A program made the position numbers and the translations under genes. Below the pieces are notes generated by a model. It saw only the letters and a program-made list of their open reading frames with translations. It was not told where the DNA came from and did not search any database. From assembly GCA_937919035.1 (NCBI GenBank), contig CALFPI010000433.1, positions 1 to 37,090 on the forward strand: a DNA stretch of 37,090 bases. Reading direction: 5' to 3'. Positions 5,358-36,410 of this stretch are shown piece by piece (within the stretch, counting starts at the first letter, position 1; every line of letters begins with the position of its first letter). Origin of the DNA: an uncultured Gemmatimonadaceae bacterium. Lineage in GTDB: Bacteria; Latescibacterota; UBA2968; UBA8231.

Positions 5358-6752
5358 TCAACTTTCTGCCTCCTCTTTGCGCGCGGCGAGGCCGGCGCCG
5401 GCCAGAGTGCACAGCAGTGGCATGATGGGATGACGAAACCGACTCAGGCTCTGCGGGCCACCTGAGGCAAACCAGAGGAATCCCGCCACCACCACACAGA
5501 GCATCCAGGCCCGCTGCGACCGCGGCGTCGCCAGCATGCCGCCGCGTGCCACCAGCAGGTAGATGCCGGCCAGGAAACCGCCGAAGAGAGTCTCGGTGAG
5601 CAACAGGCCCGGACGCTCGTGAAACACGTGCAGCAAGGTCGCCCACAGACCCTGATCCACCACACGCCCCAGCAGTCCCCCGTGGGTTGGGTAGGCGCCG
5701 AAGAGCCGCAGATACTCGACGCCTCCCGGATCCACAGCGACACGCGCCATACCCCGCAGGTGGATCCCGAGGTAGACCCATGGGTGCGCTAGCACGCGCG
5801 CCAGCCCGGTGCTTCCCATGTAGTCGAAGCGTCGCGCCGGTGACCACGATCGCTGCTCCGGATTGCGGGCGAGATAAATCTCAACATCGTGGTATCCCAG
5901 TTCTGCCTGTTGCTGGTAGAACGGGACGCCCTGCACGGCGGCGTCCGTCGATGCCCCCTGGTAGAAGTAGCTGTTCACGTCCACAATCGCTGCCAGGCCA
6001 CCGTAGTCGGCGACCACGGCGTTACGTGCCTGCCAGAGCAACACCGGCACAAGAGCCGTTGCCGTCAGCAGCAGCACTGGGCTCCACCGTGTTGCGGGCG
6101 GCGCCGAACGGCGCAGGGCGAACCAGGCGGCGCTCAGACCGACAGCAAGGGCGATGGGGTAGGCCATGGGTCGCACGAGGGCAGCCAGGCTCAACAGACC
6201 ACCGGCGCAGGCCGCTGTCCCCCTCAGGTCCTGAAACGGATCATCCCGCCGCCCCGCCAGCCGAGCCAGCAGGAACAACCCCCACGTCAGGCAGGCGGTG
6301 AACAGCGTTTCACTCAGCAAGCGCGCTGTGTAGAGGACGGACAGCGGCTCCAGCGCATAGAACGCGGCAGCGGCAACGGCCGCCCGCCGATGAAACAGTT
6401 CGAGAGCCAGGCCGTAGACGGCCAACACGGTACTGCCAGCAAGCAACGCCTGCAGCAACACCGTCCATGCCGCCAGGTGATCGACGAACATGCCGGGCAG
6501 CAGCAGCAGGGGATACCCTGGCGTACGGACAATTTCCGGCACGCCATCTCGGGAAAAGGTCCCCGTCTGCAGCATCTCCCACGCCGGCTCCAGATACCCG
6601 GGCGAGTCGGGTGCGTGCAACGTTTCGATGCCCTGTGTGCTCACAGCGGCCGCGGCGAGGGCAATGCGCAGCACGATCGCTGCGGCAGCAATTGTCAACG
6701 CCACCCGTTCCCGGACGAAACCTTTGCCGGCTTCAGGGCGTCCCAAGGACAT
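5358..6752 (-). CDS. polytopic GT-C-fold (ArnT/PMT-like) glycosyltransferase
   Basis: A 464-residue integral membrane protein with roughly ten hydrophobic segments. After the first transmembrane segment comes LHAPDSPGYLEPA, with an acidic residue in the first periplasmic loop as in GT-C enzymes that use polyprenyl-phosphate sugars. EIVRTPGYPLLLLPG and the SRFRHPIMPLL motif near the C-terminus are also typical of the dolichyl-phosphate-mannose/ArnT-like superfamily. ATG 6752 gives a short cytoplasmic N-terminus before the first segment. The frame is open back to 7289, but that part is low-complexity shadow of the divergent peptidase gene. It is the first gene of a three-gene unit with the Kelch and SGNH genes (5-nt gap, then ATGA). 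It may glycosylate a lipid or surface protein; donor and acceptor are unknown. Confidence 0.82.
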   Translation of the reverse strand: MSLGRPEAGKGFVRERVALTIAAAAIVLRIALAAAAVSTQGIETLHAPDSPGYLEPAWEMLQTGTFSRDGVPEIVRTPGYPLLLLPGMFVDHLAAWTVLLQALLAGSTVLAVYGLALELFHRRAAVAAAAFYALEPLSVLYTARLLSETLFTACLTWGLFLLARLAGRRDDPFQDLRGTAACAGGLLSLAALVRPMAYPIALAVGLSAAWFALRRSAPPATRWSPVLLLTATALVPVLLWQARNAVVADYGGLAAIVDVNSYFYQGASTDAAVQGVPFYQQQAELGYHDVEIYLARNPEQRSWSPARRFDYMGSTGLARVLAHPWVYLGIHLRGMARVAVDPGGVEYLRLFGAYPTHGGLLGRVVDQGLWATLLHVFHERPGLLLTETLFGGFLAGIYLLVARGGMLATPRSQRAWMLCVVVAGFLWFASGGPQSLSRFRHPIMPLLCTLAGAGLAARKEEAES

Positions 6753-6860
6753 CAGTTTCTGGCTCTCTGTCGGACGGCTCCCTACTTTCCTTTGAAATGC
6801 GCGGTCGCTGCGGCAATTTACGCAGCCTCCTCCAACCGCTCCAGCCGAAATGCTCGCCGC

Positions 6861-9800: not shown

Positions 9801-10925
9801 GACGGAACCATCGACACGTTGCTGCGCCAGTTGCGGGCCCCCTTTGCCGGGGTCGATTCTCTGGTCGTGGACTGGCCCGTCACCGTCAGTGGCGGTTACG
9901 AACTGAGTCTGGACGTGGATGGCAACCGGCTCCGTCGAAGGCTGGACATCATCGAGGCTCCCGTCGCCACCCCCTTTCTGCCAACAGAGGGCGCCGTTCT
10001 CCCTCTTCTGGCCCTGCAGGCCCTGATGCCGGTCCGCGCCAGCGGCGGCCCGACGGATGCGCACGCCGTGTTTGCCCTGTCACGGGATCTGACATTCGCC
10101 GAAACGACCACGACGTACTCTACCCCCATCGCGGCCAAGGCGGGTCGGGCAGTCCATACCTTCCGCCAAATGCCCCCGGGCGACGACCCGGACGCGCCTG
10201 CGGATGCTCCCATGTTCTGGCGTGTGCGGGTGGTCGTCGATGGCATCACCGGGCCCTGGTCTGCCGCCCGCTCGGTACAGCAAGCCCCGGTGGCAGGCGA
10301 TGACACTCTCACCTGGCAGCAAGGGGGAGCGGCTCTGCTCCTTGGACAAAGCAGGGGCCTGCAACCTGCCAGCGGTGGGCTCATTGCCGCCGCCGCCAGG
10401 CAACCCTTCCGGCCATCGGCCGAAACACGGGATGACGGTTTCACCGTCGTGGCTCTGCCGGGTGCCGGCGTGCTGGCCACGGACGGAACGTATCTCTACG
10501 CCAAGCGCTGGTTCAACGACCCGTCCACGATTTATGAGGGTACCGATCGGTTCACGCGCATCGGCACCGGCTTCGGCGGCTCCATTCGCGGTGGCTACTA
10601 TGGCGTCCTGCCTGACTCGACGACCCCGGGTATCTCGGCAACCTATCACACCGATGGCTACATCTATTCCGACGCGGGGCATCTGTTTGAGTTGGAGCGC
10701 GTCGATCCGATCACGGGACATCTCGATACCATCGCCGTGCCGGATGGGCTGCTCGACTGGAAGACCGGACTGGTCATCGACGACAGTCAGCGAACCCCGG
10801 GACAAGTGCTGCACGCCATGATCACCTCCGACGGTCAACAGATCTTCAACGTCTCCATGAGTTCGGCTCGTGGCACCCGCGTGGGCTGGGGGGTCCGCGT
10901 GTTCGATGTGGACGACAGCGGCTGA
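6861..10925 (+). CDS. PorU/gingipain-like C25 cysteine peptidase, catalytic part, ended by an in-frame TGA
   Basis: The frame encodes a signal peptide (LLRSLRTGLLATALLAAPAHA) if translation starts at TTG 6861; no ATG lies in frame, so the start is tentative. After a PorU-like N-terminal region (LKLVVTEDGVFRIDSDWLQATG, about 215-235) comes a C25 peptidase domain: SIGRLAVDSVEEAERVVDKI, NFSGHGAAGTMQYL with the catalytic His at about 797, and LALSCLNGLF with the catalytic Cys at about 834. Beta-rich repeats follow. At codon 1355 a TGA interrupts the frame, and the same frame continues for 485 codons to 12383. Both catalytic residues lie before the TGA, but the C-terminal sorting domain lies after it. 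PorU is the sortase-like peptidase of type IX secretion. Here it could equally be a secreted gingipain relative. Confidence 0.8.
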   Translation: MLRSLRTGLLATALLAAPAHADVQLLQSNSDGLRLLVEVDAGLGPITTMGVTAITAVGLPRGSGPGHVELPFIAQLLAAPPGARLSVTVESLADTTFYDVRLPTADSLATEFSAERLQALAHTQPLGLLRGIPAHALHVYPWHYDAASRSLRVHTRLSIDVRFAGASAARPLSHADAAGAALRSAFVNPPDHAGWQSPQPARRAAAQAYDPARPWLKLVVTEDGVFRIDSDWLQATGLNPAEIDPRTFALFHAGETQPIYVRGEQDGRFDSGDELLFLGRYRRVTTATGERDHESEYGPADTYWLTWGATPGPRFVERDVSPVHEYPPRLWYEATAHFEQDRVFDVLAAAPDTLADRWFWQQPGRWLQAVDPDRPASGTFVGDLTGLYEGDSYGARITVALQGRVGADFGEHHTTISFNNERLVEEYWSGQVSHVVSATVPSTLLRDRNRILLQAQADRIRFDQLWFNWFRIEYRRSFHAHLGYLAAPTPAAPAGQRITIEGFADHDVLLFDRTGQGLLTGAQTTSADSLVAITFEDAPGSPTTYVAADRSSLRTPVGQLDTPSDWRNPSHGADYVMVTPVEYLAAAQRLAQHRRQEGLDVVVVTSEDLFDEFSFGRFDRDALAQFVSYSYHSWQQRPALLLLFGDETWDYRGKYTGRRDQQLIPTLYYLARTRGYSPSDFRLSLVDGDDLLADLSIGRLAVDSVEEAERVVDKIIAYDNDPVPGDWRSRSVFAANWHAVNEFSAPLDSMAARYTEPIGLQSVRLYAADEAPLPNALGRRFLQELNDGALIVNFSGHGAAGTMQYLLSTQFPEWDYLSQIRNGGRLPLVLALSCLNGLFVDPHTEGLSEQLMEWPYGGAIGYVSATAISFTSQNSLLQEGLYAQLFAEGQTQFGPVLDVAKARLLAAHPGWVDVPQTMQLTGDPAQRLALPAAAEYVAVDLVLPDTAVVRGRTVRITAVVGNNARLGPSGPVVSLVGRSQDGTIDTLLRQLRAPFAGVDSLVVDWPVTVSGGYELSLDVDGNRLRRRLDIIEAPVATPFLPTEGAVLPLLALQALMPVRASGGPTDAHAVFALSRDLTFAETTTTYSTPIAAKAGRAVHTFRQMPPGDDPDAPADAPMFWRVRVVVDGITGPWSAARSVQQAPVAGDDTLTWQQGGAALLLGQSRGLQPASGGLIAAAARQPFRPSAETRDDGFTVVALPGAGVLATDGTYLYAKRWFNDPSTIYEGTDRFTRIGTGFGGSIRGGYYGVLPDSTTPGISATYHTDGYIYSDAGHLFELERVDPITGHLDTIAVPDGLLDWKTGLVIDDSQRTPGQVLHAMITSDGQQIFNVSMSSARGTRVGWGVRVFDVDDSG

Positions 10926-23393: not shown

Positions 23394-23990
23394 ATGCCTT
23401 TGCTGAGCCTCCCCTTCTCGCCCAAGTCGGTCAACCGGATCCGTCTGTTGATCCAACGTCTGGCCATGTTTGTCGGCCTCGGATTGTTGTTGTGCACCGC
23501 AGACCCGTCCGCGGCACAGGACAAGCCTTCCGAATACCAGGTCAAGGCTGCCTTTCTGTTGAACTTCGCCCGTTTCGTCGAGTGGCCGGAGGGCACAAAC
23601 CAGGATACCTTGCGCATCTGCATCGTCGGCAACGACCCCTTTGGCGACGCCTTCCAGACCATCCTTGGACGAGCACCAGGCAGTCAACCCGTACACATCA
23701 TGCATCCGGCGGCGGCTGATGTGCCAGGCGTCGATTGTCACATCCTGTTCGTCAGCGACTCCGGAAGTCGGGAACTGGCCAGAATCCTGCATCAGACGCA
23801 TCACGAACCGATGCTCACCGTAGGTGACGCTGACGGCTTTGCCCGCGCTGGCGGCATGGTGGGCTTCATCCTGCGCAACAACAAGATTCGCTTCCAGATC
23901 AACTCCACTGCAGCGACTCACGCCGGCTTGCGCTTGAGCGCCAAACTGTTGCGGCTGGCGGAGATCGTTGACGACGGGGGTGACGACTGA
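23394..23990 (+). CDS. YfiR-family periplasmic regulator (DUF4154)
   Basis: A 198-residue protein with an N-terminal signal segment (about 15-42) and the YfiR core: EYQVKAAFLLNFARFVEWP (about 47-65), LRICIVGNDPFGDAF, CHILFVSDS and GGMVGFILRNNKIRFQINSTAATHAGLRLSAKLLRLA. In the YfiBNR system YfiR is a periplasmic protein that represses the CHASE8-containing diguanylate cyclase YfiN. Here the next gene overlaps by one base (TGATG) and encodes a CHASE8-like histidine kinase, so this protein probably gates that kinase from the periplasm, which is inference. No clear Shine-Dalgarno precedes ATG 23394. A later ATG at 23466 would shorten the signal peptide. Confidence 0.88.
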   Translation: MPLLSLPFSPKSVNRIRLLIQRLAMFVGLGLLLCTADPSAAQDKPSEYQVKAAFLLNFARFVEWPEGTNQDTLRICIVGNDPFGDAFQTILGRAPGSQPVHIMHPAAADVPGVDCHILFVSDSGSRELARILHQTHHEPMLTVGDADGFARAGGMVGFILRNNKIRFQINSTAATHAGLRLSAKLLRLAEIVDDGGDD

Positions 23991-25321
23991 TGACGTACCT
24001 GCGTGACATGTCCATCCGCCGCAAGGTCCTGGCGGTGATCATGCTGACCAGCAGTATCGCCTTGCTGCTGGCCTGTGGTGCCTTTGCCGCCTACGACTGG
24101 CTCAGCACCCGCGAGTCCCTCGTGCACCGTCTGGCGACGATGGCCGACGTCGTCGGTGCCAATTGCACCGCCGCCCTGGTTTTCGACAATACAGAGGACG
24201 CACAACAGACGCTGGCAGCATTGCGGGCAGAACCAAGACTTGTCGCCGGCGACGTCTACAACCGTGCCGGCAGAGCGTTTGCTCACTACGGCAGTCGGAG
24301 TCCCTCCGACCGCCTCCCGCAGCCGGTCCTGCCCGACTACCGGTTCGGTGAGGATTACCTGGAAGTCTGGCGTCCGATTGAACTGGACGGTGAACGTCTG
24401 GGTACGATCTATCTGTGTTCTGAGTTGTCCGAACTGGAGGATCGGATGGCGCGCTACGGACAGATCGCCGTCGTATTCCTCGTGGCAGCGTCATTGGTGA
24501 CCTTGCTGATCGGCTCGCGCCTGCGGGCGGTCATCACCGAACCGATCCTGCGTCTGCAGGGGGCCATGCAGGCGGTGCGCGATAATCCCTCCTATTCGGT
24601 GCGCGCCGAGAAACACGGGGATGACGAACTCGGCCAGCTGGCGGATGGCTTCAATGCCATGTTGACGCGGATCGCCGACCGTGACGAGGCCCTGCGCACC
24701 TCCCTGGTAGAAAAGGAAGTGTTGCTCAAGGAGGTCCATCACCGGGTCAAGAACAACCTGCAGATCATCGCCAGCCTGCTCGACCTGCAGGCCAACAGTA
24801 TTACAGACGATGCGACGGTTGAGGTGTTACGTGAGAGTCGCGATCGCGTGCGATCCATGGCCCTGATCCATGAGCACCTCTATGGCACCGAGGAGTTGGG
24901 GCGCATCGATCTGTCCGACTACGTGCAAGACCTGTGCAGCAGCGTCGCCGCCTCCTACGGTCTCAACAATGTCCAGGTTCTGCCGAAGGTCGATGACATT
25001 GTCCTCAATATCGACACCGCCATCCCTTGTGGGTTGATCATCAACGAACTGCTGTCGAATGCGCTGAAGTATGCCTTCCCCGAAGGCAAGGGTTGTGTGC
25101 GGATTGAGGTCCGTCGCGCCCCCGAGGGCGAAATGGGCTATGTGATGACCGTTGCCGATGATGGCGTCGGACTGCCGGCAAGCGTCGATCCCACAGCATC
25201 AGCCTCGCTTGGACTGCAGTTGGTGCATGCCCTTGCACAACAGATTCACGGCGTCCTGACCTGCGACCGGCAGGGCGGCACAACCATGCGGATTCACTTC
25301 AACCCCCTCAGACCTGCATGA
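23990..25321 (+). CDS. CHASE8-HAMP sensor histidine kinase (HisKA_2 type)
   Basis: A 443-residue membrane kinase. Transmembrane segment 1 is at about 11-33. A periplasmic CHASE8-like domain follows at about 40-140 (ADVVGANCTAALVFDNTEDAQQTLAALRAEP, also seen in YfiN), then transmembrane segment 2 at about 152-174 and a HAMP domain to about 230. The HisKA_2 dimerisation motif is LLKEVHHRVKNNLQIIASLL with phospho-acceptor His250, and the ATPase domain shows INELLSNALKYAFP and VADDGVGLP. The start overlaps the YfiR stop by one base. The 3' end overlaps the convergent response-regulator gene by 14 bases (25308-25321). The layout looks like YfiN with its GGDEF output replaced by a kinase. The convergent single-domain regulator is a plausible partner. 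Confidence 0.9.
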   Translation: MTYLRDMSIRRKVLAVIMLTSSIALLLACGAFAAYDWLSTRESLVHRLATMADVVGANCTAALVFDNTEDAQQTLAALRAEPRLVAGDVYNRAGRAFAHYGSRSPSDRLPQPVLPDYRFGEDYLEVWRPIELDGERLGTIYLCSELSELEDRMARYGQIAVVFLVAASLVTLLIGSRLRAVITEPILRLQGAMQAVRDNPSYSVRAEKHGDDELGQLADGFNAMLTRIADRDEALRTSLVEKEVLLKEVHHRVKNNLQIIASLLDLQANSITDDATVEVLRESRDRVRSMALIHEHLYGTEELGRIDLSDYVQDLCSSVAASYGLNNVQVLPKVDDIVLNIDTAIPCGLIINELLSNALKYAFPEGKGCVRIEVRRAPEGEMGYVMTVADDGVGLPASVDPTASASLGLQLVHALAQQIHGVLTCDRQGGTTMRIHFNPLRPA

Positions 25322-25670
25322 CCTGCCGCACGAACTCAGCCACTTCACTGGGGCGGAAGGGTTTTCCGAGAATTCCCAGCACTCCCGGCAAGCGCTCCTC
25401 GTCGGGGTCCATGCCGGTTATGATGGCGACCTTCACATCGGGATCCAGCAACTGCAGTTCCGCCAGCGCGTCGTAGCCTGACAGCCCCGGCATACCCAGA
25501 TCGAGCAGGATGATGTCGATCGTGTCCTCCCCCAGTTGGAACATGTCGATCGCCTGCCGACCAGCCGACGCCGTCAGGACATCACAGGTCGCGGCAAGTA
25601 ATTTCTGCAACAGAGCCAGCACGATCGGATCGTCATCAACGATGAGGATCGTCGGTTTTGCGTCGGTCAT
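25308..25670 (-). CDS. single-domain response regulator (CheY-like)
   Basis: A 120-residue stand-alone receiver with a full active site: acidic pair in LIVDDDP (about 12-13), phospho-acceptor Asp57 in LLDLGMPGLSG, Thr in IITGM and Lys103 in LGKPF. There is no output domain, so it must act by protein contact, as a phosphorelay intermediate or a phosphate sink. It is convergent with the CHASE8 kinase gene with a 14-bp overlap of coding ends, and it starts 98 bases from the divergent Rieske-protein gene. HisKA_2 kinases often pair with such single-domain regulators, so the neighbouring kinase is the first candidate partner, though they are not on one transcript. Confidence 0.92.
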   Translation of the reverse strand: MTDAKPTILIVDDDPIVLALLQKLLAATCDVLTASAGRQAIDMFQLGEDTIDIILLDLGMPGLSGYDALAELQLLDPDVKVAIITGMDPDEERLPGVLGILGKPFRPSEVAEFVRQVMQV

Positions 25671-25768
25671 CAGCTCTCATGGGGATGCGGTGGGCAGGGG
25701 CCGTTGTACCTATGATACTGCGATCCGCCAGGGTACCGCCAACTGAACGACTCAAAAGGAAGCTGAAC

Positions 25769-27574
25769 ATGACACTGCGCACACCAGACCGTCCGGCCGC
25801 CGATCCCGATGACATGGTTTTCCATGAATTGTGCGCCGCCGCCGACATCGCCACCGATGCGGGCAAACCTTTCACCATCGACGGCAACCATCTGGCCGTG
25901 TTCCGCCAGCAAGAGGGTTTCTACGCCTGTGACAATCGCTGCCCACACATGGGGTATCCCCTGTCGGAAGGCAGCGTGCGCGATGGGGTCCTCATCTGTC
26001 ACTGGCACCATTGGGAGTTTGACCTGAAGACGGGGGCCTGCTTCCTGACCAACGGCGATGATGTCGCCAGCTTTCCCATCGAGGATCGTGATGGCGTGCT
26101 CTTCGTCGGCATCCCGAAAGGTTCCAAAGGTGCCGCCCGCCAGCGCCTTGTGGAGCGCGGCAAGAGGGCGCTTGAACAAGGACTGAAGGATCGTTCCTCC
26201 TTCCTGATCGCCAAGGCTGTCACGGCTCTGCGAGAAACCGGCGCGACACCGCAGGAGATCATTCAACACGGCCTCTTCTATGGCGCCCACAAAACCAGTG
26301 ACGGCTGGTCCTCGGGCGTTGCCATTCTGACGCTGTGTGGCAACATGTGGGAGGATGTGGACCCGAAGGACCACAATCTGTTCCTCGTGCATGGTCTGTC
26401 GCAGATCGCCAATCGTACGTCGGGCAGCTCCCGGCGGCAGCGTTTCCCTTTCCCCCGGACCGATGCCGACCCCGACCTGCAGACGATGAAGCGCTGGTTC
26501 CGTCGCTACATCGATCTGCGCGATCGCGGCGCCGCCGAGCGCATCCTGCTGACCCTGCACGACCGCGGCGAATCGGTGGGAGTCCTGGCCGATTTTGTTT
26601 TCAGCGCCGCTACCGATTCTTACTTCACCGGTGATGGTCACGCCCTCGATTTCGCCAACAAGATGTTCGAAGCCCTCGAATTCGTCGACTGGCAGGGCGC
26701 CCACGAAATTCTGCGACCGATCATCGTGGATCTGGTGAGCCGTACGCGCCATGAGGAGACCTCGCGGTGGCAGGATGCCGTGCCGGTACTGGAGGGAATC
26801 TTCGGCCACATTGATGACATCTGGGAGGCCAACCAGAAAGTGCCCGCGCAGGCACTGGACATCTCCGCCTATGCACAGATTCTGCTGGGTGATGACTTTG
26901 CACCCATTGTCGATGACCTCGAGCAGCGCCTGCGCGCCGGCGTCAATCCCCTCGACATCTGTCGCGCCATGACCTATGCCGGCGCCGTGCGCACCCTTCG
27001 CTTCCATCTGAAGAACGAAGGCGACTGGCATGACGTGGCCAACATCTACTCGTACGCCCACGCGCTCTACCGGGCCTTCCAGCTGGCCCCCTCAGCAGCC
27101 CTGCTACGTGCCCTGTTTCATGGTGCAGTATTCACCACCTACCTGCGTTGGCTGAACATGCCCGCTGCACGGGTGCCGCGCGCCGGGCAGCGCCTTGCGG
27201 GGGAGGAGCATTTCGCCAGTCCGGAAAAACTGCTGCACCGCCTGCAGGAACTGGCGGACTTCCAGAAGGTGGCCGAAGCCGAGATTCTGGTGAATCAGTA
27301 CCTGGAGGAGGGCCACGACATCACGCCCCTGAAACACACCCTCGCCCATATCATGCTGCGCGAGGACGCTGAACTGCACATGTTCCAGGTTCTGGAAGCC
27401 GCCTGCCGGCACTACGATCTAAGCACCGACCCGGAAGAGCGACGCACCCACATGCTGGCAGCAACACGCTACATCACCGCCCAGAAGGTGATGAAAAACA
27501 TCCTCTGGTCCACGGAGAATGCCGAACGATTGCAGCGCGGTGAATTATTGAGCGACCGGGAAGACGACGACTAG
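25769..27574 (+). CDS. Rieske [2Fe-2S] domain protein with a long helical C-terminal domain of unknown function
   Basis: A 601-residue cytoplasmic protein; ATG 25769 has AAAAGGA nine bases upstream. Residues about 18-115 form a Rieske domain with both cluster-binding boxes, CPH (Cys58, His60) and CHWH (Cys78, His81), followed by WEFDLKTG as in ferredoxin-type Rieske components. The remaining 480 residues are mostly helical, with His-rich segments (QHGLFYGAHKTSDGWSSGVAIL, DPKDHNLFLVHGLSQIA, FTGDGHALDFANKMFEAL). I do not recognise the domain; no non-haem-iron 2-His-1-carboxylate motif is obvious. It may be an oxygenase or redox enzyme fed electrons by its own Rieske centre, which is inference. 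The last codons and the following 50 bases are duplicated immediately downstream. Confidence 0.82.
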   Translation: MTLRTPDRPAADPDDMVFHELCAAADIATDAGKPFTIDGNHLAVFRQQEGFYACDNRCPHMGYPLSEGSVRDGVLICHWHHWEFDLKTGACFLTNGDDVASFPIEDRDGVLFVGIPKGSKGAARQRLVERGKRALEQGLKDRSSFLIAKAVTALRETGATPQEIIQHGLFYGAHKTSDGWSSGVAILTLCGNMWEDVDPKDHNLFLVHGLSQIANRTSGSSRRQRFPFPRTDADPDLQTMKRWFRRYIDLRDRGAAERILLTLHDRGESVGVLADFVFSAATDSYFTGDGHALDFANKMFEALEFVDWQGAHEILRPIIVDLVSRTRHEETSRWQDAVPVLEGIFGHIDDIWEANQKVPAQALDISAYAQILLGDDFAPIVDDLEQRLRAGVNPLDICRAMTYAGAVRTLRFHLKNEGDWHDVANIYSYAHALYRAFQLAPSAALLRALFHGAVFTTYLRWLNMPAARVPRAGQRLAGEEHFASPEKLLHRLQELADFQKVAEAEILVNQYLEEGHDITPLKHTLAHIMLREDAELHMFQVLEAACRHYDLSTDPEERRTHMLAATRYITAQKVMKNILWSTENAERLQRGELLSDREDDD

Positions 27575-27863: not shown

Positions 27864-28814
27864 TCAGGGCCGGCTGGTTCTTGCCACCCACGCCCGGTGC
27901 AGCTGCTCGTGCTCTTCCAGCAGCGCCCGCACATTGTCGAGAAACTCTTCACGGAAAGGCTCAGGCCGTTCCGTCTGCAGCAAGGCCAGGATCTGCGCCC
28001 CCGTAGGCTCGGTGTGCATGCGCATGGCCGTATCGAACATGATGCCGCGCAGCGCCGGGTCCATATCGATACGGGAACACATCACACGTGTCATCAGGCT
28101 CGGCGAGGCCGCGATGATGCGCAGGTCCCGTCGCAACTGGGGGTTCATCTCGCACAACAATTCGTAGGTAACCTCGTCGACGATACTGGCGTCGGCCTGG
28201 CCAAACAGAACCGGTGGCACTGCGTGGCCGGGGCGATTCCGTAGCTCAAGCGTCACCTTCTCAGCTGATGTTGGTCCGTATCCCTGGCGCAGCAGCAGCA
28301 CGTCGAGCCACTTGTGTGCGGTCTGCCCACGGTCGAGGGTGGATACCAGTACGCGGCGCCCTGCCAGCTGGGTAACATCGTCGATGCCTGCCTCGCGATG
28401 CACCAGTAGCAGTTGCCGGGACAGGATCTCTCCCCCCCGCTGCGGTACGACCTCCGGTCGTAACGGTAGGCGCGTGATCATATCCAGATAGTTCATGACC
28501 GTCAGCGCCAGAACATCGATGTGCCCCGCTGCGAGTTCTGTCTCAATCGTCTGCATGTCGTCGATAACATGCAGTTCCAGCATCGCCTGGAAGCCCAGGA
28601 TCGGCTGCATCTGCGACGTCCAGAGTTCCATGGCGATTTCGGCGTCGCGCACGTTGACCTGTGGGAAGATGGCGGGACTGGTGCAGAAGCGGATGACGGG
28701 CAATGGTGGAGCGGCAGAGGGCTGTGCCGATTGAGTCTGGCCGTAGGTGACGGTCGACGCACCGCAGACACAGGCCAGGACAAAGGAGCGGAGTCGCGGA
28801 AGCGCTCGGGTCAT
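27864..28814 (-). CDS. PhnD-like periplasmic solute-binding protein, third of three
   Basis: A 316-residue exported protein (signal peptide about 1-25, ending TYGQ) of the phosphate/phosphite/phosphonate-binding PhnD-like type II fold. Diagnostic stretches are IRFCTSPAIFPQVNVRDAEIAMELWTSQM, LAAGHIDVLALTVMNYLDMI (the domain-1 loop that contacts ligand in PhnD), LAGRRVLVSTLDRG, VLFGQADASIVDEVTYELLCEMNPQLRRDLRIIAASP. It is the last gene of the kinase-binding-protein run; its start overlaps the preceding stop by four bases (ATGA). It is the most diverged of the three copies. No permease or ATPase gene is nearby, so a sensory role is likelier than uptake. The ligand is unknown. Confidence 0.88.
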   Translation of the reverse strand: MTRALPRLRSFVLACVCGASTVTYGQTQSAQPSAAPPLPVIRFCTSPAIFPQVNVRDAEIAMELWTSQMQPILGFQAMLELHVIDDMQTIETELAAGHIDVLALTVMNYLDMITRLPLRPEVVPQRGGEILSRQLLLVHREAGIDDVTQLAGRRVLVSTLDRGQTAHKWLDVLLLRQGYGPTSAEKVTLELRNRPGHAVPPVLFGQADASIVDEVTYELLCEMNPQLRRDLRIIAASPSLMTRVMCSRIDMDPALRGIMFDTAMRMHTEPTGAQILALLQTERPEPFREEFLDNVRALLEEHEQLHRAWVARTSRP

Positions 28815-29734
28815 GGTGAAGACGCCGATTCGGGCCGCGGCACGAGAGTCTTATAGGCGGCGACCAACTCGCGCACGCCCTGCAGGTATTCTTCTCGAAA
28901 AGGCACGATACTCGAGCGCCCGAACAAGTCGAGAATCATGCGGCCCTGCGGCCGTTCGTGCAGATCACCGATTGTTCGCAGCGTCAATGCCCGCAACGAC
29001 GCAGAGCATCCGGGTCCGAAACTGGTAACGCCTTCCAGCAGATCGGCGGAGTTGGTGACGATCCGCAGATCCTGACCGACCTGCGGGTTCATTTCCGCCA
29101 GTGTCGCCAGGGACCGATCGCTGACGATGCAGGCGTCAAGTTGCGAGAAGAAGACCGGCAGTGCCGCCTTGGGCGCATCGCGCACTTCATGCAAGTGGAA
29201 ATAGTCCCTCGCAGGACCAAGCCCCTGACGGGCCAGTTCCACCTCGAGCCACATGCGTGGCAACGGATTGGCGGCCGACGAGACGATGGCCAGATCCGCA
29301 CCGGCCATTGTCTGCCACGATGTCAGCGACGATGCAGCCTGCACCAGCAGCAGATAACGCTCGGTGACCCTGCCGTTGGTCTGCACCGGGACCATCGCCG
29401 GCGTCAGGTGCATCTGGGGCTGATAGATGAGAAAATCCACACTCGACAGCACGACGAAGTCGATGCGACCAGCAAGCACATCAACAACGGCGGCGGCGGC
29501 ACTATCGTAGATCACGGTTTCGCCGCGATACCGCGCATCGAAGAAGCCCGCCAGTTCGTTGGCCCACATCTGCAGGGCGATGACTACATCTTCGCGGTTG
29601 GCGATATCGAATATCGAACTACTGAAGGCCATGCGGACCAGGCCTTCGTCCTGGTCTGCCGGCACACGGAGCGGTGGCTCGGCAGCGGCCGCGGCCGCTG
29701 CCGCCAGCAGCAGAAGTGTCGCGACGATAATCAT
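28811..29734 (-). CDS. PhnD-like periplasmic solute-binding protein, second of three
   Basis: A 307-residue exported protein with an Ala-rich signal peptide (MIIVATLLLLAAAAAAAA). The PhnD-like core reads VRMAFSSSIFDIANREDVVIALQMWANELAGFF, VLAGRIDFVVLSSVDFLIYQ, MAGADLAIVSSAANPLPRMWLEVELARQGL, and VFFSQLDACIVSDRSLATLAEMNPQVGQDLRIV. The last block is nearly shared with the other two copies (compare VFFGQVQACIVTERALQTQGELNPQI), so the genes arose by tandem duplication. It overlaps both neighbours by four bases. The positions that differ between copies include the ligand loop after the first domain (LSSVDFL here, LFTFDFL and LTVMNYL in the others), which suggests different ligands or ligand states. 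Confidence 0.88.
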   Translation of the reverse strand: MIIVATLLLLAAAAAAAAEPPLRVPADQDEGLVRMAFSSSIFDIANREDVVIALQMWANELAGFFDARYRGETVIYDSAAAAVVDVLAGRIDFVVLSSVDFLIYQPQMHLTPAMVPVQTNGRVTERYLLLVQAASSLTSWQTMAGADLAIVSSAANPLPRMWLEVELARQGLGPARDYFHLHEVRDAPKAALPVFFSQLDACIVSDRSLATLAEMNPQVGQDLRIVTNSADLLEGVTSFGPGCSASLRALTLRTIGDLHERPQGRMILDLFGRSSIVPFREEYLQGVRELVAAYKTLVPRPESASSP

Positions 29735-30660
29735 GGCGTCGCCGTCGATGACAGTTGCTGCCAGCGCTCGTACGCGGCAACCAGTTCCCTCGTCGCCTGG
29801 ACATCGGTGTCGCGGAAAGCACGGATCCGCGACAGGCCGAACAATTCCAGAACCTGCCGACCAAGGGGCCTCTGGTGCAGTGTGGTTGTTGCGGCCAGCA
29901 TGAGGACTCGCGTCGAATCATCACAGGCCGGGCCAAAACTCACCACCGTTGGCAGGAGTCCTGGAGAGCGGGCGATGACGGTCAGTTCCCGGGCGATCTG
30001 GGGATTCAGTTCACCTTGTGTTTGCAGGGCACGCTCAGTGACGATGCAGGCCTGAACCTGACCGAAGAACACAGCCAGGATGGCGCTGGCAGATGACTCG
30101 GCCTGCTGCATGCGGGCATGTTGCCGGCCACTGGTCAGTCCCTGTTGCTGCAACGCCACGTCGAGCCAGATCAGCGGCAGCCTGTTTTCCGCAGGCGTAC
30201 CGATTCGAATCTGGGTGTCACGCAGATCCGCAAGATTCTGGGTGGACGTGCCCACACGCACAACGACGACGTACTTCTCTGTGGTGTGGCCGTCGGCGAA
30301 CACGCCGACGATGGCCGGCGTGAGATCTGCGTTTTGCTGCTGGGCAAGGAAATCGAAGGTGAACAGGGTGATCGCCATGGCCCGTCCCGCTTCGACTGCC
30401 CTCACCGCATCCTCCGTGCTGTCGTAGATGACAACCCTGCCGTCAATATCCGTGTCGAAAAATTCGGTGATTCGCTCTTTCCACGTCTGCACCACGATCT
30501 GTGCGTCTTCACGACTGATCTGGCCGAAGGCGATACTGGTGAAGGCTAGTTCCACAGAGCGACGACCGTTGTCAGCATCGGTTTTGGCACCGGCACTGGT
30601 TGCTGACGCCACACACAGGAAGCCAAACAGCAGAGCGCGAAAACTCATGTCGGCAGTCAT
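29731..30660 (-). CDS. PhnD-like periplasmic solute-binding protein, first of three
   Basis: A 309-residue exported protein (signal peptide about 5-25, ending SAGA). The PhnD-like core shows VELAFTSIAFGQISREDAQIVVQTWKERITEFF, VEAGRAMAITLFTFDFLAQQ, LADLRDTQIRIGTPAENRLPLIWLDVAL and VFFGQVQACIVTERALQTQGELNPQIARELTVIARSP. It is clearly closer to the second copy than to the third. Its ATG overlaps the TGA of the histidine-kinase gene by four bases, and its own stop overlaps the next start the same way, so kinase and binding proteins should be made in linked amounts. The simplest reading is a periplasmic ligand sensor docking on the kinase's extracytoplasmic domain. Confidence 0.88.
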   Translation of the reverse strand: MTADMSFRALLFGFLCVASATSAGAKTDADNGRRSVELAFTSIAFGQISREDAQIVVQTWKERITEFFDTDIDGRVVIYDSTEDAVRAVEAGRAMAITLFTFDFLAQQQNADLTPAIVGVFADGHTTEKYVVVVRVGTSTQNLADLRDTQIRIGTPAENRLPLIWLDVALQQQGLTSGRQHARMQQAESSASAILAVFFGQVQACIVTERALQTQGELNPQIARELTVIARSPGLLPTVVSFGPACDDSTRVLMLAATTTLHQRPLGRQVLELFGLSRIRAFRDTDVQATRELVAAYERWQQLSSTATP

Positions 30661-32315
30661 CCCGGTGAGCCATTGTCTGCGGCGGGCAACACCATGATGG
30701 CACTTGTCCCACCCCCCGGGCGCGAACTCAATTGCAGCGCACCGCCGATTTCCTCGACGATGGTTCTCGACACGGCCAGACCCAATCCCGTGCCCTTGTT
30801 GGGTTCCTTGGTGCTGAAGAAAGGATCAAAGACACGGGCCAGGATCTCCTCCGGGATCCCGTCACCGGCATCCGTCACCTCGATCAGCACGCGACGCACT
30901 CCATCGACCACCGCTGCCGAGGTAGACACGCGCACCCAGGCGTCGACACTGCGCCCGGCGGCGGCCGCCTCCTCGACGGCATCGCGGGCGTTGTTCAACA
31001 GATTGAGCACGACCTCTTCGAGGGAGTAGGCGTTGGCCACAACCAGCGGCAAATCTGCCCCCTTGTCGCAGAGCAACTCAAGGCCATGGGAGCGGAACTG
31101 TGCGCCCAGCAGATCGATGGCATTGTCAACGACATCGTTGACGTTGACCGCCGTGGTCTGTGGTCGCCCCGCTTCACGGGCGAACATGCGGATGTGCTCG
31201 ATTATGTGCACCATGCGATCGGTCTGATCGAGAATGCGCTGCATGCGTGAGCCCAGTTCTGCATCATCCAGACTCCAGCCACGGTCCTGGCCAATGAGAA
31301 CGTGCTCGGCCAGTCCGCGCACGCCCATCAGCGGCTGGTTGAGCTCATGGGCGATGCCGGCCGCCATTTCGCCCAGAGATCGCAGCCGGTCGGTGTGCAT
31401 CGTCACGGCCCGCTGGGTCTGCAGCTCCTGCTCCGCTTCATGGCGCGCCTGCTCGGCCCGCTGGCGTTCACCGATCTCGCCGCGCAGTACGACATTCGCT
31501 TCGACCAGTTCGGCGGTGCGCTCCGCCACGCGATTCTCCAGTTCGGCCTGCGCCCGTTGCAGGGTTTCCGTCATCTGGTTGAAGGACCGCGCCAGGCTTT
31601 CCACTTCATCACCCGTTGTCACCGTCGCCCGCGCGGACAGGTTGCCGGCGGCGACTTCGCGACTGACCCGGTCCAGGTGGCCGATGGGGCGGCTGAGGCG
31701 ACGGGCAAAAAACAGCGACACGAGCGACGCCGCCAGCAGGCTGATCGTACCCAGCACCGCGATACGTCGGTACGTCGCGCGCTGATCGAGGTCGAACTGG
31801 GCGCGGGACAGGCCGATGTGAATCCAGCCCCAGTCGATCCCAGAATAGCGCAGGGGATACGAGTAGTGATAGACAGACTCGTCGACCAGCGAGCTTACTT
31901 CGAAGGCTCCCTCGGGAGACGGGCCCCCCTGCCAACGGTCGGTGTCGCGTTCGTACGACCAGCCCTCTCCGGTGTGGACCAGTGAGAAGCCGTCCTTGCG
32001 GGTGATAACGATGAAACGCACGATGTCGCGCTCCTGCACGACCTTCATACAATGCTCGATCACCGGGCTGTAGTCCTCCACGACAATCGAGGTCACCGTG
32101 ATCTGATCGATCGACGTGGCCATCACCTCTGCTGTCAACTCGAGGCGCGCCTTGAGCATCTCCTGCTGGGTCGGCAGGATGAGAACGATGAACATGCCGA
32201 GGGCCAGAATCACCCCTGTCCATGCCATGATCCCGGTGCGAACAAAGATCGAGCGTGTCGGTCGTCGGTCGAGAGGCGCGCCGATGGCTGCTTCGTTGTA
32301 CGGCTTGTGTACCAT
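30657..32315 (-). CDS. periplasmic-sensing histidine kinase, co-translated with three binding proteins
   Basis: A 552-residue kinase. Transmembrane segment 1 (MAWTGVILALGMFIVLIL, about 30-47) and segment 2 (about 183-203) bracket a periplasmic domain of about 135 residues with Cache/PDC-like features (VRFIVITRKDGFSLVHTGEGW, YSYPLRYSGIDWGWIHIGLS). A HAMP domain, a coiled coil (QAELENRVAERTAELVEANVVL) and HisKA follow, with phospho-acceptor His323 in MAAGIAHELNQPLMGV; the ATPase domain has NLLNNARDAVEEA, DAGDGIPEE and NKGTGLGLAVS. ATG 32315 has GAGG upstream; a GTG at 32333 is also in frame but would overlap the small upstream ORF. No receiver is attached, so phosphate must go to a separate regulator. 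Confidence 0.92.
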   Translation of the reverse strand: MVHKPYNEAAIGAPLDRRPTRSIFVRTGIMAWTGVILALGMFIVLILPTQQEMLKARLELTAEVMATSIDQITVTSIVVEDYSPVIEHCMKVVQERDIVRFIVITRKDGFSLVHTGEGWSYERDTDRWQGGPSPEGAFEVSSLVDESVYHYSYPLRYSGIDWGWIHIGLSRAQFDLDQRATYRRIAVLGTISLLAASLVSLFFARRLSRPIGHLDRVSREVAAGNLSARATVTTGDEVESLARSFNQMTETLQRAQAELENRVAERTAELVEANVVLRGEIGERQRAEQARHEAEQELQTQRAVTMHTDRLRSLGEMAAGIAHELNQPLMGVRGLAEHVLIGQDRGWSLDDAELGSRMQRILDQTDRMVHIIEHIRMFAREAGRPQTTAVNVNDVVDNAIDLLGAQFRSHGLELLCDKGADLPLVVANAYSLEEVVLNLLNNARDAVEEAAAAGRSVDAWVRVSTSAAVVDGVRRVLIEVTDAGDGIPEEILARVFDPFFSTKEPNKGTGLGLAVSRTIVEEIGGALQLSSRPGGGTSAIMVLPAADNGSPG

Positions 32316-32325
32316 AGATCGATCC

Positions 32326-32427
32326 TCAGTCACTCGTACCGAAGGCCGCCAGAGTCACGGCACAAGCCGCCGCCTGACCGATCGTCACCAGCACCAGCAG
32401 GCGCATGCCGGAGCTCCAGATAGCCAT
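32326..32427 (-). CDS. possible 33-residue hydrophobic peptide between the TolC-family and kinase genes
   Basis: The ORF starts at ATG 32427, five bases after the TolC-family stop, preceded by AGGTGA at eight to ten bases, and ends 10 bases before the kinase ATG. The product (MAIWSSGMRLLVLV..., ending ..TLAAFGTSD) is almost entirely hydrophobic and could be one membrane helix or a secreted signal-like peptide. It fills the gap exactly, in keeping with the tight packing of the operon. No homologue is known to me and chance cannot be excluded for such a short ORF. Confidence 0.42.
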   Translation of the reverse strand: MAIWSSGMRLLVLVTIGQAAACAVTLAAFGTSD

Positions 32428-32432
32428 CTGGT

Positions 32433-33866
32433 TCACCTGGTGCCGCTTATGAGTGCCAGCAGTTCGGTGCCCACGATCTGCTCCAGATGGGCACGTGCCT
32501 CAGCGTGTTCGTAGCGCACCTTTTCATACACGGCACGGGTGAAGGACTCCATCAACTGGGACTGGATCACGTCCTGGACCTCAACGAGTTGATCCTGGTA
32601 GGCTCTGGCGTTGAGGCTGCGGTTCTGTTCGGCCGCCTCGAGGGCCGCGCCCATTGCGCTCTCCTGGCCCTGAGCCCGCATCATTTCGAGGAACAGGGCC
32701 TTCACCTGCAGACCGAGCCCCTCGCGCAGACGCACTTGTTGGTGTTCGAGGCGCGTCAGTCTCGCCTGGGCTTCACGAATGCGATGCCGCGTCAGAAAGC
32801 CGTCGAACAGGGGAATTTCCAACCCCACGGCAACAAGCCAGCTCTTATTTTCGGCGTCACCGACGATGCCGGCGTCGTGGCTGTTGCTGATCAGTTCCAC
32901 ATTGCCCACGAGGGCAGCCATGGGCATACGCCCGCTGCGCGCCTCATCGACCTGGCCTGCCAGGGCGTCGAGTCCTGCCTGCAACTGCCCCCAATCCGGA
33001 TTGAAGCGGTAGCTGGCGTCAACGAGATCGGCAAGATCCACAGCCAACGCTTCATAGGGCACGGACGACGCGTTCGGCGTCACGACCTGATCCCAGGTCA
33101 GACCCATCGTGTTACCCAGCGCCGCAACTGCCAGTTCACGGTTGCTGTGCAGACGCACCACGGCGGAGCGCAGTCCCTCGACGACAACTTTGTGCGCCAA
33201 CCAGTCCGTCTTTTTAACCGCGCCAGAGCCGCGTTGGTAGAGGTTTTCGGTGAGCTCCAACGTCACCTCCAACCGGGCCAGGGCTTCCTCGCCGATGCGG
33301 ACAAGATTGACTGCCAGGACGGCGCCGTGGTAGATGCGCTTGACGTCGTAGACCACTTCCAGATCGGTGCGCCGCGACGCCTGCTGGGCGGCGGTGATCC
33401 CGGCGCGGGTCTGCCGCAGCAGCGCGCCGCGCAAGCCGCCGGTATACAGCGGTAGCACAACATCGACGTCAGATACGGCATGTACCTTGTCCTGCAGCCG
33501 AATATGCTTCTCCGGAACCGTAACGTTGGCCAGTAGATCCTGGTTCAACAGGTTGAAGGAGTAGAGATCCGTCTCTTCGGGAAAGATGAAGGTCGGATCG
33601 TCATCGCGACGGCTGAGGCTCGAACTCAGCGTCGCAGTCGGCCAGTAGGTGGACAGCGCCTGCTGGTGCTGCGCCTCGGCGATCACAACGCCAAGCTGCG
33701 ACGCCGGTCGTGCATGATTGTTGGCCAGGGCCTGTTCGAGACACTCTTTCAGACTCAGGTGGAGGCTGGAATTTGTACGGCTTTCGGCCTCTGCCGCAGC
33801 TGTACCCGGCATCAGGTTCATGGCGCTCAGCGCTGCCAGAAAACAGGCACACCTGATCCGTTTCAT
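32433..33866 (-). CDS. TolC-family outer-membrane protein (OEP)
   Basis: A 477-residue exported protein (signal peptide MKRIRCACFLAALSAMNLMPGTAAA) with the two-repeat layout of TolC-type trimeric channels. The start of the mature protein reads LHLSLKECLEQALANNHARPASQLGVVIAEAQHQQA; the first strand pair has DVDVVLPLYTGGLRGALLRQTRAGITAAQQ; the second repeat has WLVAVGLEIPLFDGFLTRHRIREAQARL. Long helical parts surround these. ATG 33866 is preceded by AAAGGG about eight bases upstream and overlaps the TGA of a short upstream ORF. No inner-membrane pump or adaptor gene is present in the window, which is odd for this family unless it works with pumps encoded elsewhere or in a signalling or secretion role. 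Confidence 0.9.
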   Translation of the reverse strand: MKRIRCACFLAALSAMNLMPGTAAAEAESRTNSSLHLSLKECLEQALANNHARPASQLGVVIAEAQHQQALSTYWPTATLSSSLSRRDDDPTFIFPEETDLYSFNLLNQDLLANVTVPEKHIRLQDKVHAVSDVDVVLPLYTGGLRGALLRQTRAGITAAQQASRRTDLEVVYDVKRIYHGAVLAVNLVRIGEEALARLEVTLELTENLYQRGSGAVKKTDWLAHKVVVEGLRSAVVRLHSNRELAVAALGNTMGLTWDQVVTPNASSVPYEALAVDLADLVDASYRFNPDWGQLQAGLDALAGQVDEARSGRMPMAALVGNVELISNSHDAGIVGDAENKSWLVAVGLEIPLFDGFLTRHRIREAQARLTRLEHQQVRLREGLGLQVKALFLEMMRAQGQESAMGAALEAAEQNRSLNARAYQDQLVEVQDVIQSQLMESFTRAVYEKVRYEHAEARAHLEQIVGTELLALISGTR

Positions 33867-34024
33867 GCGGTTGCCCTTTGTTGGTTTGTCATTGTCGGTT
33901 CTTCTTGTCTTGGTCGAGTGCTGCACGATCCCGTCGCAACCGCGCCTGTGCTCAGCAGTTTGGACACGGGCTTCGTCAGGCACTTGCGCAGACCACGGTT
34001 CATGACGTCGATGGCCAGATCCAT
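33863..34024 (-). CDS. possible 53-residue ORF between hybrid kinase and TolC-family gene
   Basis: The frame runs from ATG 34024, ten bases after the hybrid-kinase stop, to a TGA that overlaps the TolC-family ATG as ATGA. The product begins MDLAIDVMNRGLRKCLTKPV and has a short apolar stretch (SKLLSTGAVATGSC), weakly lipoprotein-signal-like, then a polar tail. No clear Shine-Dalgarno precedes the ATG. Position and overlap are suggestive, but the composition is not convincing; it may simply be untranslated leader of the next gene. Confidence 0.28.
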   Translation of the reverse strand: MDLAIDVMNRGLRKCLTKPVSKLLSTGAVATGSCSTRPRQEEPTMTNQQRATA

Positions 34025-34034
34025 GCGACGGCCG

Positions 34035-35978
34035 TCAGCCCTGTGTTTGATGGCTGGCAAAGGTGATGGTGAAGGTCGTGCCGACGTCCACCGTCGAGTC
34101 GACCTGCACCGAGGCGCCGTGACGGTCCAGGATGGTCTTGACGATCGGCAGGCCGAGTCCCGTACCCTTGCCCTCGGGCTTTGTGGTGAAGAACGGTTGA
34201 AACATGCGCTCCAGATTCTCCTCCGTGATGCCACAACCGGTATCCCGGATGGTGACGATCACGCGGCGACCATCGGCATCGCCGTGGACACCGAGATACA
34301 GCCGCCGCTGGGCCACGCCCTCCATGGCGTGCGAAGCGTTGACGACGAGATTGCGGAACACCTGCTCAATCTGGGCTGGATCCCCCTTGATCGCCGGCAC
34401 GTCCTCGGGACAGTCGACCTCAATGTCACATTGCCGCAGAACTCGCAGGGGGGACAGCAGCGACAACAGCTTGTTCAGCTCCGTCTTCAAGTCGATGATC
34501 AGGTCACTGCTGGCAGTCGGTTTGCCCAGGTTCAGCATCTGCTGTACGAGATCGGTCATCGCCGTCACAGCGGGGACAATCTCACCGATGAATTCCCGCG
34601 CCTCATCCGCTTGACCAGATTCGATCATCGATGTTGCCAGATCAGCGTTGCCAAGGATGGCCTGCAGCGGCGTCTTGAACTCGTGCGCGATTCTTGGCGC
34701 CAGTTGACCCAACACTGACAGACGTTCGGCCTGCAAAAGTTGCGCCTCCACATGCTCACGGTCGGTGTGATCCTCGATCACGTGCAGTCGGGCAATGACC
34801 CGCTGGCCGCCGTCCATGACGTCACTACTGTGCAGCAGCACCGGCACAAGCTCACCGTTCTGCTTCAGGTGCTGCCGGCGGGCCGACTCCTTCGATCCGG
34901 GGTTCAGGCCGCTGCCATCGGCAGGATCGGCGAAGAGCAGGCTCAAGGGACGCCCCTTGATATCGGCCTCCGTGTAGCCGTGGATCTGCTCCGCCTTGCC
35001 ATTGAAGGTCAGGATCTTGCCGTTGTTGTCCGTCGACACGATACCGAAGGGTGCAGAATCGATCAGGTGACTGAGATATCGCTCGCGCTCGGCGATCTTC
35101 GTCTGCAGATCGGAGCGCCCTTCAATCAAGTCTCCAAGCAATTTCTGCATGTCCGAGGAGCGCTTGTGCTCGCTGAGTGCCTTGGCGATCAGCCGGCGCA
35201 GCTCGGTCTCAACGAGCGGCTCATTGAGATATCCGACGGCGCCACACTCAAGGGCGCGCACCAGGGTCTGGCGATCCGGTCGAGCGGAGACGATCAGTGG
35301 AATGACGGTGGAATCGATGCTGCGCATCTCAGCCACCAGGTCGATGCCGTCCACATCAGGCAGATCGACGGCGGTGATGACGACGTCAATCGTCTGTTCG
35401 GCAAACAGCTTCAGGGCACTTGCTGCATCCGGCTGCGAATGGACGGTGTGTCCGAGCCGCTGCAGAATGTCACGAACCAGACGGGTCGTAGCATCATCGG
35501 GAAACACGACGAGGAAGTCGGCAACCAGTGTCGGCATTGCCTCGGACGGAACCTGTTCGCCGGCGACCAGACCACGCCGCACCTGGCGGAAATCGGCCAG
35601 TACCTGTGCCTCCAATCGACGACGCTCATCAATGCGATCCATGCAGTGCATCAACTCGCGCAGCCCCACTGGTTTTTTCAGGTAGTCCTGCGCCCCGTAC
35701 TGCAGGGCTGCTGTGGCAACACTCTCGTCGCCGTGGCCCGTCATCAGGATCAGTGGGATGCCGGGGTGCCGCAGGCGCACGGTGCGCAACAGATCAAGAC
35801 CATCCATCCGCGGCATACGCACGTCGCTGAGAATGACGTCTACATCGCCGGCGACCTCCAGTTGCGCGAGGGCGTCGACGCCCTGTTCCGCGGTCAGTAC
35901 CTCGTGACCGCAGTCCGTGAGGAAATCACCAACAACGCGGAGGATGTTGATCTCATCGTCGACAATAAGGACTCTCAC
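34035..35978 (-). CDS. REC-pseudoREC-PAS hybrid histidine kinase
   Basis: A 647-residue cytoplasmic protein without membrane segments. Receiver 1 (1-120) is intact: IVDDE, Asp52 in LSDVRMPRMDG, LMTGHGD, Lys101/102 in YLKKP. Receiver 2 (about 152-270) has lost key residues: Ala203 replaces the phospho-acceptor (ITAVDLPDVDG), Glu253 replaces the conserved Lys (YLNEP), and FPDD replaces the usual acidic pair. A coiled coil and a PAS domain follow (about 310-415, LIDSAPFGIVSTDNNGKILTFN), then HisKA with His432 (LGQLAPRIAHEFKTPLQAIL) and an ATPase domain (GDPAQIEQVFRNLVVNASHA, GKGTGLGLPIV). The GTG start shares one base with the upstream regulator's TAG. Receiver input to kinase output makes it a phosphorelay hub. 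Confidence 0.92.
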   Translation of the reverse strand: MRVLIVDDEINILRVVGDFLTDCGHEVLTAEQGVDALAQLEVAGDVDVILSDVRMPRMDGLDLLRTVRLRHPGIPLILMTGHGDESVATAALQYGAQDYLKKPVGLRELMHCMDRIDERRRLEAQVLADFRQVRRGLVAGEQVPSEAMPTLVADFLVVFPDDATTRLVRDILQRLGHTVHSQPDAASALKLFAEQTIDVVITAVDLPDVDGIDLVAEMRSIDSTVIPLIVSARPDRQTLVRALECGAVGYLNEPLVETELRRLIAKALSEHKRSSDMQKLLGDLIEGRSDLQTKIAERERYLSHLIDSAPFGIVSTDNNGKILTFNGKAEQIHGYTEADIKGRPLSLLFADPADGSGLNPGSKESARRQHLKQNGELVPVLLHSSDVMDGGQRVIARLHVIEDHTDREHVEAQLLQAERLSVLGQLAPRIAHEFKTPLQAILGNADLATSMIESGQADEAREFIGEIVPAVTAMTDLVQQMLNLGKPTASSDLIIDLKTELNKLLSLLSPLRVLRQCDIEVDCPEDVPAIKGDPAQIEQVFRNLVVNASHAMEGVAQRRLYLGVHGDADGRRVIVTIRDTGCGITEENLERMFQPFFTTKPEGKGTGLGLPIVKTILDRHGASVQVDSTVDVGTTFTITFASHQTQG

Positions 35979-36358
35979 TACCGCTTCTCTCCTTCGCCGA
36001 TCAGGCGGCGAATCAGATCGTCAAGGTCGACAAGTCGCACGGGTTTGAGCAGGAAACCACTGGCGCCCCGCAACTCCGCTTCACTGTCCATTTGCGCGTC
36101 TCCGTGACCGGTCATCATGACCACCGGCGTGTCCTGATCGTGGGTTCGCAATTGCTCCAGCAGAGCAAGTCCGTCCAGGCCCGGCATACGTACGTCGGCC
36201 AGAACCAGATCGAACGTCACCGCCTGGAGGATACTCGACGCCGCCATCCCGTCCTCGGCGGTGCAGACACGATAGCCGCAATCGGTCAGATAATCGCCTA
36301 GCGTGTCGCGGACGATCTGTTCGTCGTCCACCAGCAGGATGCGCAACTCCCCGGTCAT
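35978..36358 (-). CDS. single-domain response regulator, coupled to the hybrid kinase
   Basis: A 126-residue receiver with all active-site residues: LVDDEQ (Asp11-Asp12), Asp55 in LADVRMPGLDG, MMTGHGD with Thr83, and Lys105 in FLLKP. It closely resembles receiver 1 of the adjacent hybrid kinase (DVRMPxxDGLxLL, LTDCGxxVxTAExG), so the two probably arose by duplication. ATG 36358 has GAGG six bases upstream; an ATG at 36388 is in frame but has no ribosome site. Its stop overlaps the hybrid kinase start by one base. Without an output domain it probably passes phosphate onward or regulates by contact. Confidence 0.9.
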   Translation of the reverse strand: MTGELRILLVDDEQIVRDTLGDYLTDCGYRVCTAEDGMAASSILQAVTFDLVLADVRMPGLDGLALLEQLRTHDQDTPVVMMTGHGDAQMDSEAELRGASGFLLKPVRLVDLDDLIRRLIGEGEKR

Positions 36359-36410
36359 GCTTGCCTCGTCCGTTGATAGGGCTGCCATCGTTTACACATT
36401 TTACGAGCAA

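Follow-up and report, generated by a model that had tools for sequence, protein, structure and literature searches.

Organization of the locus

The window analyzed here is a whole contig (CALFPI010000433.1, 37,090 nucleotides) of a metagenome-assembled genome of 5.9 Mb, which is 87% complete and consists of 782 contigs. On its minus strand lies a series of genes transcribed in the order response regulator, REC-REC-PAS-histidine kinase, TolC, sensor kinase, SBP1, SBP2 and SBP3. Pfam assigned a single REC domain to the response regulator (35978–36388), a candidate phosphate acceptor, and identified the next protein (34035–35978) as a REC-REC-PAS-histidine kinase, a possible phosphorelay partner. 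The TolC-family outer-membrane protein (OEP, 32433–33983), whose probable true start is near 33865, lies upstream of the sensor histidine kinase (30657–32333), the end of the former and the start of the latter being 99 nt apart. The kinase combines a single Cache domain with HAMP, HisKA and HATPase_c domains and is followed by three secreted binding proteins of the PF12974 family, SBP1 (29731–30660), SBP2 (28811–29734) and the divergent copy SBP3 (27864–28814).

The original prediction had described a kinase with a Cache-like domain, followed by three secreted PhnD-like proteins, and the corresponding ORFs were recovered where it had placed them, with a 4-nt ATGA overlap at each of the three junctions (kinase-SBP1, SBP1-SBP2 and SBP2-SBP3), as it had reported. 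These genes are overlapping, which is the correct term in place of the “fused” used in that prediction, and the kinase was called from a GTG at 32333 rather than from the in-frame ATG at 32315 chosen previously. The adjacent TolC-family gene (32433–33983), which belongs to the unit, had been left out.

An Rfam scan of the window returned zero matches to RNA elements, and promoter and terminator scans gave nothing exceeding shuffles. A role in anti-phage defence was also considered and discarded, PADLOC giving no match. Several other genes of the window deserve mention. A protein with a Rieske domain and a long extension at its C-terminus (25658–27574, plus strand) is convergent with the SBP operon. 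At 23394–25321 (plus strand), a YfiR/HmsC-like secreted protein (DUF4154) directly precedes a CHASE8-HAMP-HisKA_2 kinase and forms with it a second pair of periplasmic regulator and kinase, 2.5 kb from the first. Further away, a long ORF (5889–10925, plus strand) carries a gingipain-type Peptidase_C25 domain (242 bits), and the FlgD_ig-like C-termini of its neighbours suggest a sorting signal for secretion.

A Cache-domain sensor kinase

The HAMP, HisKA and HATPase_c domains of the kinase were clear in Pfam. Its periplasmic part, approximately residues 26–205, gave no family match in the window protein itself and a weak match to sCache_3_2 in its relatives. A model of the sensor built from 29 relatives (pLDDT 89.6) shows a six-stranded sheet together with two helices, one of them long, and the solved structures that matched it best in Foldseek were the Cache/sensor domains of WalK, Tlp3, SoHK1S and DctB. 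Model and fold search thus locate a Cache fold between two membrane helices, as in Cache-domain sensor kinases, and the term “Cache-like” previously given to this domain was right. The best-conserved stretch of the sensor is YSGIDWGWIH; all 29 sequences share its S, D, W, G, W, I and H. The sensor profile also matched the sequences of alpha-haemolysin and 4u64 (E 0.015–0.03); these matches were judged to be due to chance, the fold search having given Cache domains.

Divergent binding proteins with an ArrX-like fold

All three binding proteins matched PF12974 well above its cut-off of 27 bits (70–81 bits; SBP1, 81; SBP2, 69.6; SBP3, 72), and SBP1 reached just 22 bits against the PhnD equivalog model TIGR03431, for which the cut-off is 261. 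An AlphaFold model of SBP1 built from 57 relatives (pLDDT 90) had ArrX as its best fold match in the PDB (E 4e-19), followed by PtxB, AioX and PhnD. The ranking obtained with a sequence profile was ArrX (1e-18), the sterol-binding protein MCA1014 (5e-11), PtxB (2e-9) and PhnD (8e-6), so that the binding proteins are nearer to ArrX than to the transport proteins PtxB and PhnD by sequence as well as by fold.

The pocket residues of AioX (Cys106, Ser161/Ser163, His192 and Asp210), aligned through ArrX, are not conserved in these proteins. Among the 57 relatives, the Asp was found in 1/57 and an SxS-like loop in 8/57, while the Cys and the His are not conserved. Arsenic oxyanions are thus unlikely to be the ligands, and arsenic sensing was rejected as the default reading. 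Pocket positions vary among the relatives, and the ligands may differ between copies. Other positions are strongly constrained: NPQ is invariant (57/57), W164 is present in 55/57, and F198, F273 and Q268 are nearly invariant. An LNP(Q/E) block had been noted previously as conserved between the copies; the motif should read NPQ, the Q being present in every relative instead of a Q/E alternative. This element could be structural rather than a docking interface.

Pairwise identities within the window were 39% between SBP1 and SBP2, 23% between SBP1 and SBP3, and 29% between SBP2 and SBP3. The tree joins SBP1 to SBP2 as its sister (support 100/99) and leaves SBP3 outside this pair, and the operons of Geobacterales contain several distinct paralogue clades which are kept across species. 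The number of binding-protein genes per locus ranges from 0 to 5. At locus L039, from Desulfopila, the copy at 8420–8938 has lost about 130 profile positions through an internal deletion and is likely a dying paralogue. Overall, this resembles a turnover in which receptors come and go while the kinase and the channel stay.

Such turnover raises the question of whether the copies are simply redundant, that is, birth-and-death duplicates recognizing a single ligand in a system resembling AioX/AioS with spares. The variable copy number, the sister relationship of SBP1 and SBP2 and the large deletion at L039 would all fit this explanation, which we nevertheless regard as rather doubtful: the window copies are just 23–39% identical, and the paralogue clades of Geobacterales remain distinct from one species to another.

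A further PF12974 gene, the fourth of this genome, was found as an orphan on another contig (L014, G000:C774, 1801–2730), with W164 and NPQ both present. Its counterpart in a sister species (L012, G003:C687, approximately 430–1360) belongs to the same subfamily. Neither orphan has a kinase or a TolC gene beside it, and both lie in conserved synteny with amidohydrolase-like genes. The existence of such copies apart from any kinase counts against the co-receptor reading.

Distribution of the module and absence of ABC transport genes

The sensor domain served as sole query against a collection of 84,980 genomes, one per species. Because only this domain was used, the genes found next to it constitute an independent observation. 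The scan led to the recovery of 31 loci, mostly from incomplete metagenome-assembled genomes, in at least seven phyla: Latescibacterota, Desulfobacterota including relatives of Geobacter, Nitrospirota, Calditrichota, Ignavibacteria/Bacteroidota, Verrucomicrobiota and Campylobacterota. The module is thus rare but widely scattered. Two contigs are cut at the kinase (L035 and L049), leaving 29 loci that can be evaluated for binding proteins, and in 27 of them one to five PF12974 genes adjoin the kinase. The first exception, L037, has a TolC-kinase arrangement, and PF12974 genes are located on other contigs of the same genome. The second, L033, has kept the sensor kinase, but no binding protein or TolC is found anywhere in the genome, so the kinase may act alone.

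Of the 26 loci with a contig long enough to be judged, 22 have a TolC gene. It is missing at L030, L033, L045 and L055, being encoded elsewhere in the genome for L030 and L055. The usual gene order is TolC, one or more binding proteins and kinase, and that of the window is TolC, kinase and three binding proteins; since all parts are retained, the order has changed and the content is conserved. Two additional genes were encountered next to these loci. A rubrerythrin gene directly follows the kinase at L027 (12428–13003, assigned by NCBIfam) and at L031 (12353–12988, by sequence resemblance), and a CxxCH-rich, multihaem cytochrome-like protein is encoded directly upstream of TolC at L060 (G338:C159, 3422–4411).

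Two observations could have overturned the original prediction: permease and ATPase genes lying beside the binding proteins in relatives, or a lack of co-conservation of these proteins with the kinase. The co-conservation holds across phyla, and no permease or ATPase was found in the clusters of relatives, where a crude search for ABC-ATPase motifs was equally negative. Just two ABC-like genes were seen, at L047 and L049, both several kb downstream. The claim that the window contains no ABC permease or ATPase was also borne out, no ABC domain being found in the window ORFs scanned, and neither PhnC nor PhnE was detected nearby in the window or in the 31 related clusters. As neither observation contradicted it, the co-receptor reading is well supported by genomics. 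It was incomplete in that TolC had been missed, and its principle is not new.

Most PF12974 proteins serve ABC importers, and the genes of the window could in principle belong to an ordinary importer whose permease and ATPase are encoded elsewhere, with a kinase that merely controls it; genes could indeed be missing from a genome that is 87% complete. However, no PhnE above the cut-off was present in this genome, none of the 31 loci has an ABC gene in its cluster, and the nearest solved relative of the binding proteins is a protein of a signalling family, which makes such an importer highly improbable. Given the lack of an import pump in the gene set, a multi-ligand sensor is likelier than a transporter.

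A dedicated TolC-family partner

The TolC-family protein contains two OEP repeats, recognized as two stretches of PF02321 (115 bits), and 19/19 relatives match the same family. It represents a subfamily specific to the module. In a sample of 47 genomes of the class, high-scoring TolC proteins were found in two genomes (649 and 637 bits, the next best reaching 142 bits), and both cluster with the sensor kinase and binding proteins. Similarly, in the phylum of Desulfoluna (395 genomes sampled), two genomes encode the sensor, and high-scoring TolC proteins are confined to these two (678 and 658 bits, against 221 for the next best). In both samples, the sensor is therefore found in precisely those genomes that have the TolC subfamily (2/47 and 2/395). 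This co-occurrence, together with the 31 conserved loci, rules out a chance neighbourhood.

The proteins also diverge together. Pairwise distances correlated at 0.83 between TolC and sensor (18 loci), 0.78 between TolC and binding proteins and 0.69 between sensor and binding proteins, each with p ~ 0.001. Mean pairwise identity was 42% for TolC, 41% for the sensor and 27% for the binding proteins. TolC is a dedicated part of the module, linked as tightly as the binding proteins, and it is for this reason that the earlier picture was incomplete. The extracellular loop of the subfamily is 60–89 residues long, versus 50–60 in many other TolC proteins. It was considered as a site of ligand recognition and rejected, its conservation (0.52) not exceeding the average of the protein (0.59).

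Efflux or secretion is the usual task of TolC proteins, and the TolC gene, present in the cluster at 22/26 evaluable loci, is among the best-conserved parts of the module. These features would suit an exporter that carries its own regulator, in which TolC pairs with an inner-membrane pump whose genes lie elsewhere, the compound is gathered in the periplasm by the binding proteins, and the kinase adjusts production of the pump. Against this explanation, no inner-membrane pump or adaptor (MFP, RND or ABC) was recognized in the cluster at any locus, and we know of no PhnD-fold protein that feeds an efflux pump. We therefore consider it unlikely. A TolC deprived of an inner-membrane partner is nonetheless odd, and counts against a reading as a pure sensor.

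Output of the sensor kinase

The single-REC protein of the window (35978–36388) is 43% identical to the product of a REC gene located directly after the kinase of L026, and hybrid kinases similar to the 34035–35978 protein flank several of the related loci. These resemblances suggest that both the regulator and the hybrid kinase are linked to the sensor kinase. Among the kinases of relatives, C-terminal additions comprise REC (12/29), Hpt (3) and GGDEF (3), and in some cases GGDEF-EAL or HD domains occur in regulators encoded nearby. No regulator with a DNA-binding domain was found beside the window unit.

Proposed mechanism

Gene content, co-conservation, co-divergence, fold and the absence of ABC genes are direct observations, and from them we infer that the kinase, the binding proteins and TolC probably form a multi-component sensor rather than a transporter, with the binding proteins as interchangeable co-receptors. 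Within the periplasm, each secreted PhnD/ArrX-fold protein would bind a small molecule and dock on the single Cache domain of the kinase, presumably via a shared surface that includes NPQ. Docking would change the activity of the kinase, and the signal would be transmitted to response regulators by phosphorelay. With several paralogous binding proteins, one kinase could answer several ligands, and the set of receptors would grow and shrink between species. The copy number of 0–5, the divergent pockets and the invariant NPQ fit such combinatorial or multi-ligand sensing.

The TolC-type channel may provide, at the outer membrane, either an entry for the signal molecule or a controlled export route. 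More tentatively, the whole assembly might span the envelope, TolC acting as an input that passes or gates the signal and interchangeable binding proteins competing for one Cache kinase, so that sensing is combinatorial and multi-ligand and involves no transport.

Comparison with known systems

AioX and ArrX represent one branch of the PhnD-type fold for which a role in signalling, not transport, has been proposed, and in AioXSR the response needs the binding protein, the kinase and the regulator, all three (PMC5908839). The AioX-AioS-AioR and ArrX/ArxX systems (PMC5908839) resemble the present module in that the gene of a secreted PhnD-fold protein lies beside that of a sensor kinase, with no ABC genes and a role in signalling, and ArrX is the closest solved relative of our binding proteins. 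They differ in having one binding protein, no TolC and a pocket for arsenic oxyanions (Cys, His, Asp, SxS) whose residues are not conserved here; no arsenic enzyme genes were recognized beside the loci. In the TtrS and ThsS kinases (PMC5408782), a PhnD-like module likewise controls a histidine kinase. It is however fused into the kinase, whereas here the binding proteins are secreted separately and the kinase has a Cache domain. LuxP/LuxQ and TorT/TorS (PMC5908839) also provide a kinase with a separate periplasmic binding protein as its co-receptor, but from other families, in single copy and with no TolC. In GltB-GtrS-GltR with OprB (PMC7927077), a binding protein activates the kinase and the system has an outer-membrane channel; this binding protein comes from a working ABC importer, however, and a sugar porin forms the channel.

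Only about ten cases of a binding protein activating a sensor kinase are reported to be known (PMC9602780). The system had been put forward as undescribed, which is too broad for the co-receptor principle, already known, and appears correct for the presence of several binding proteins and of a TolC dedicated to the module. No paper joining TolC, PhnD and histidine kinase was found in a literature search from which subscription journals were mostly missing. To our knowledge, the sensor kinases activated by binding proteins are all one-to-one. If our reading is true, the module would exemplify many-to-one sensing in nature, with one to five swappable receptors per kinase and docking rules readable from sequence, by setting the invariant NPQ and DWGWIH against the diverging pocket. 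Since TolC, normally an export channel, is tied to a sensory system, the crossing of the outer membrane by a signal becomes testable, and relatives of Geobacter as well as Desulfoluna limicola ASN36 (L041), which has a finished genome, provide experimental entry points. Relative to the systems above, the novelty seems to lie in a conserved module that combines several swappable binding proteins per kinase with a dedicated TolC-type channel.
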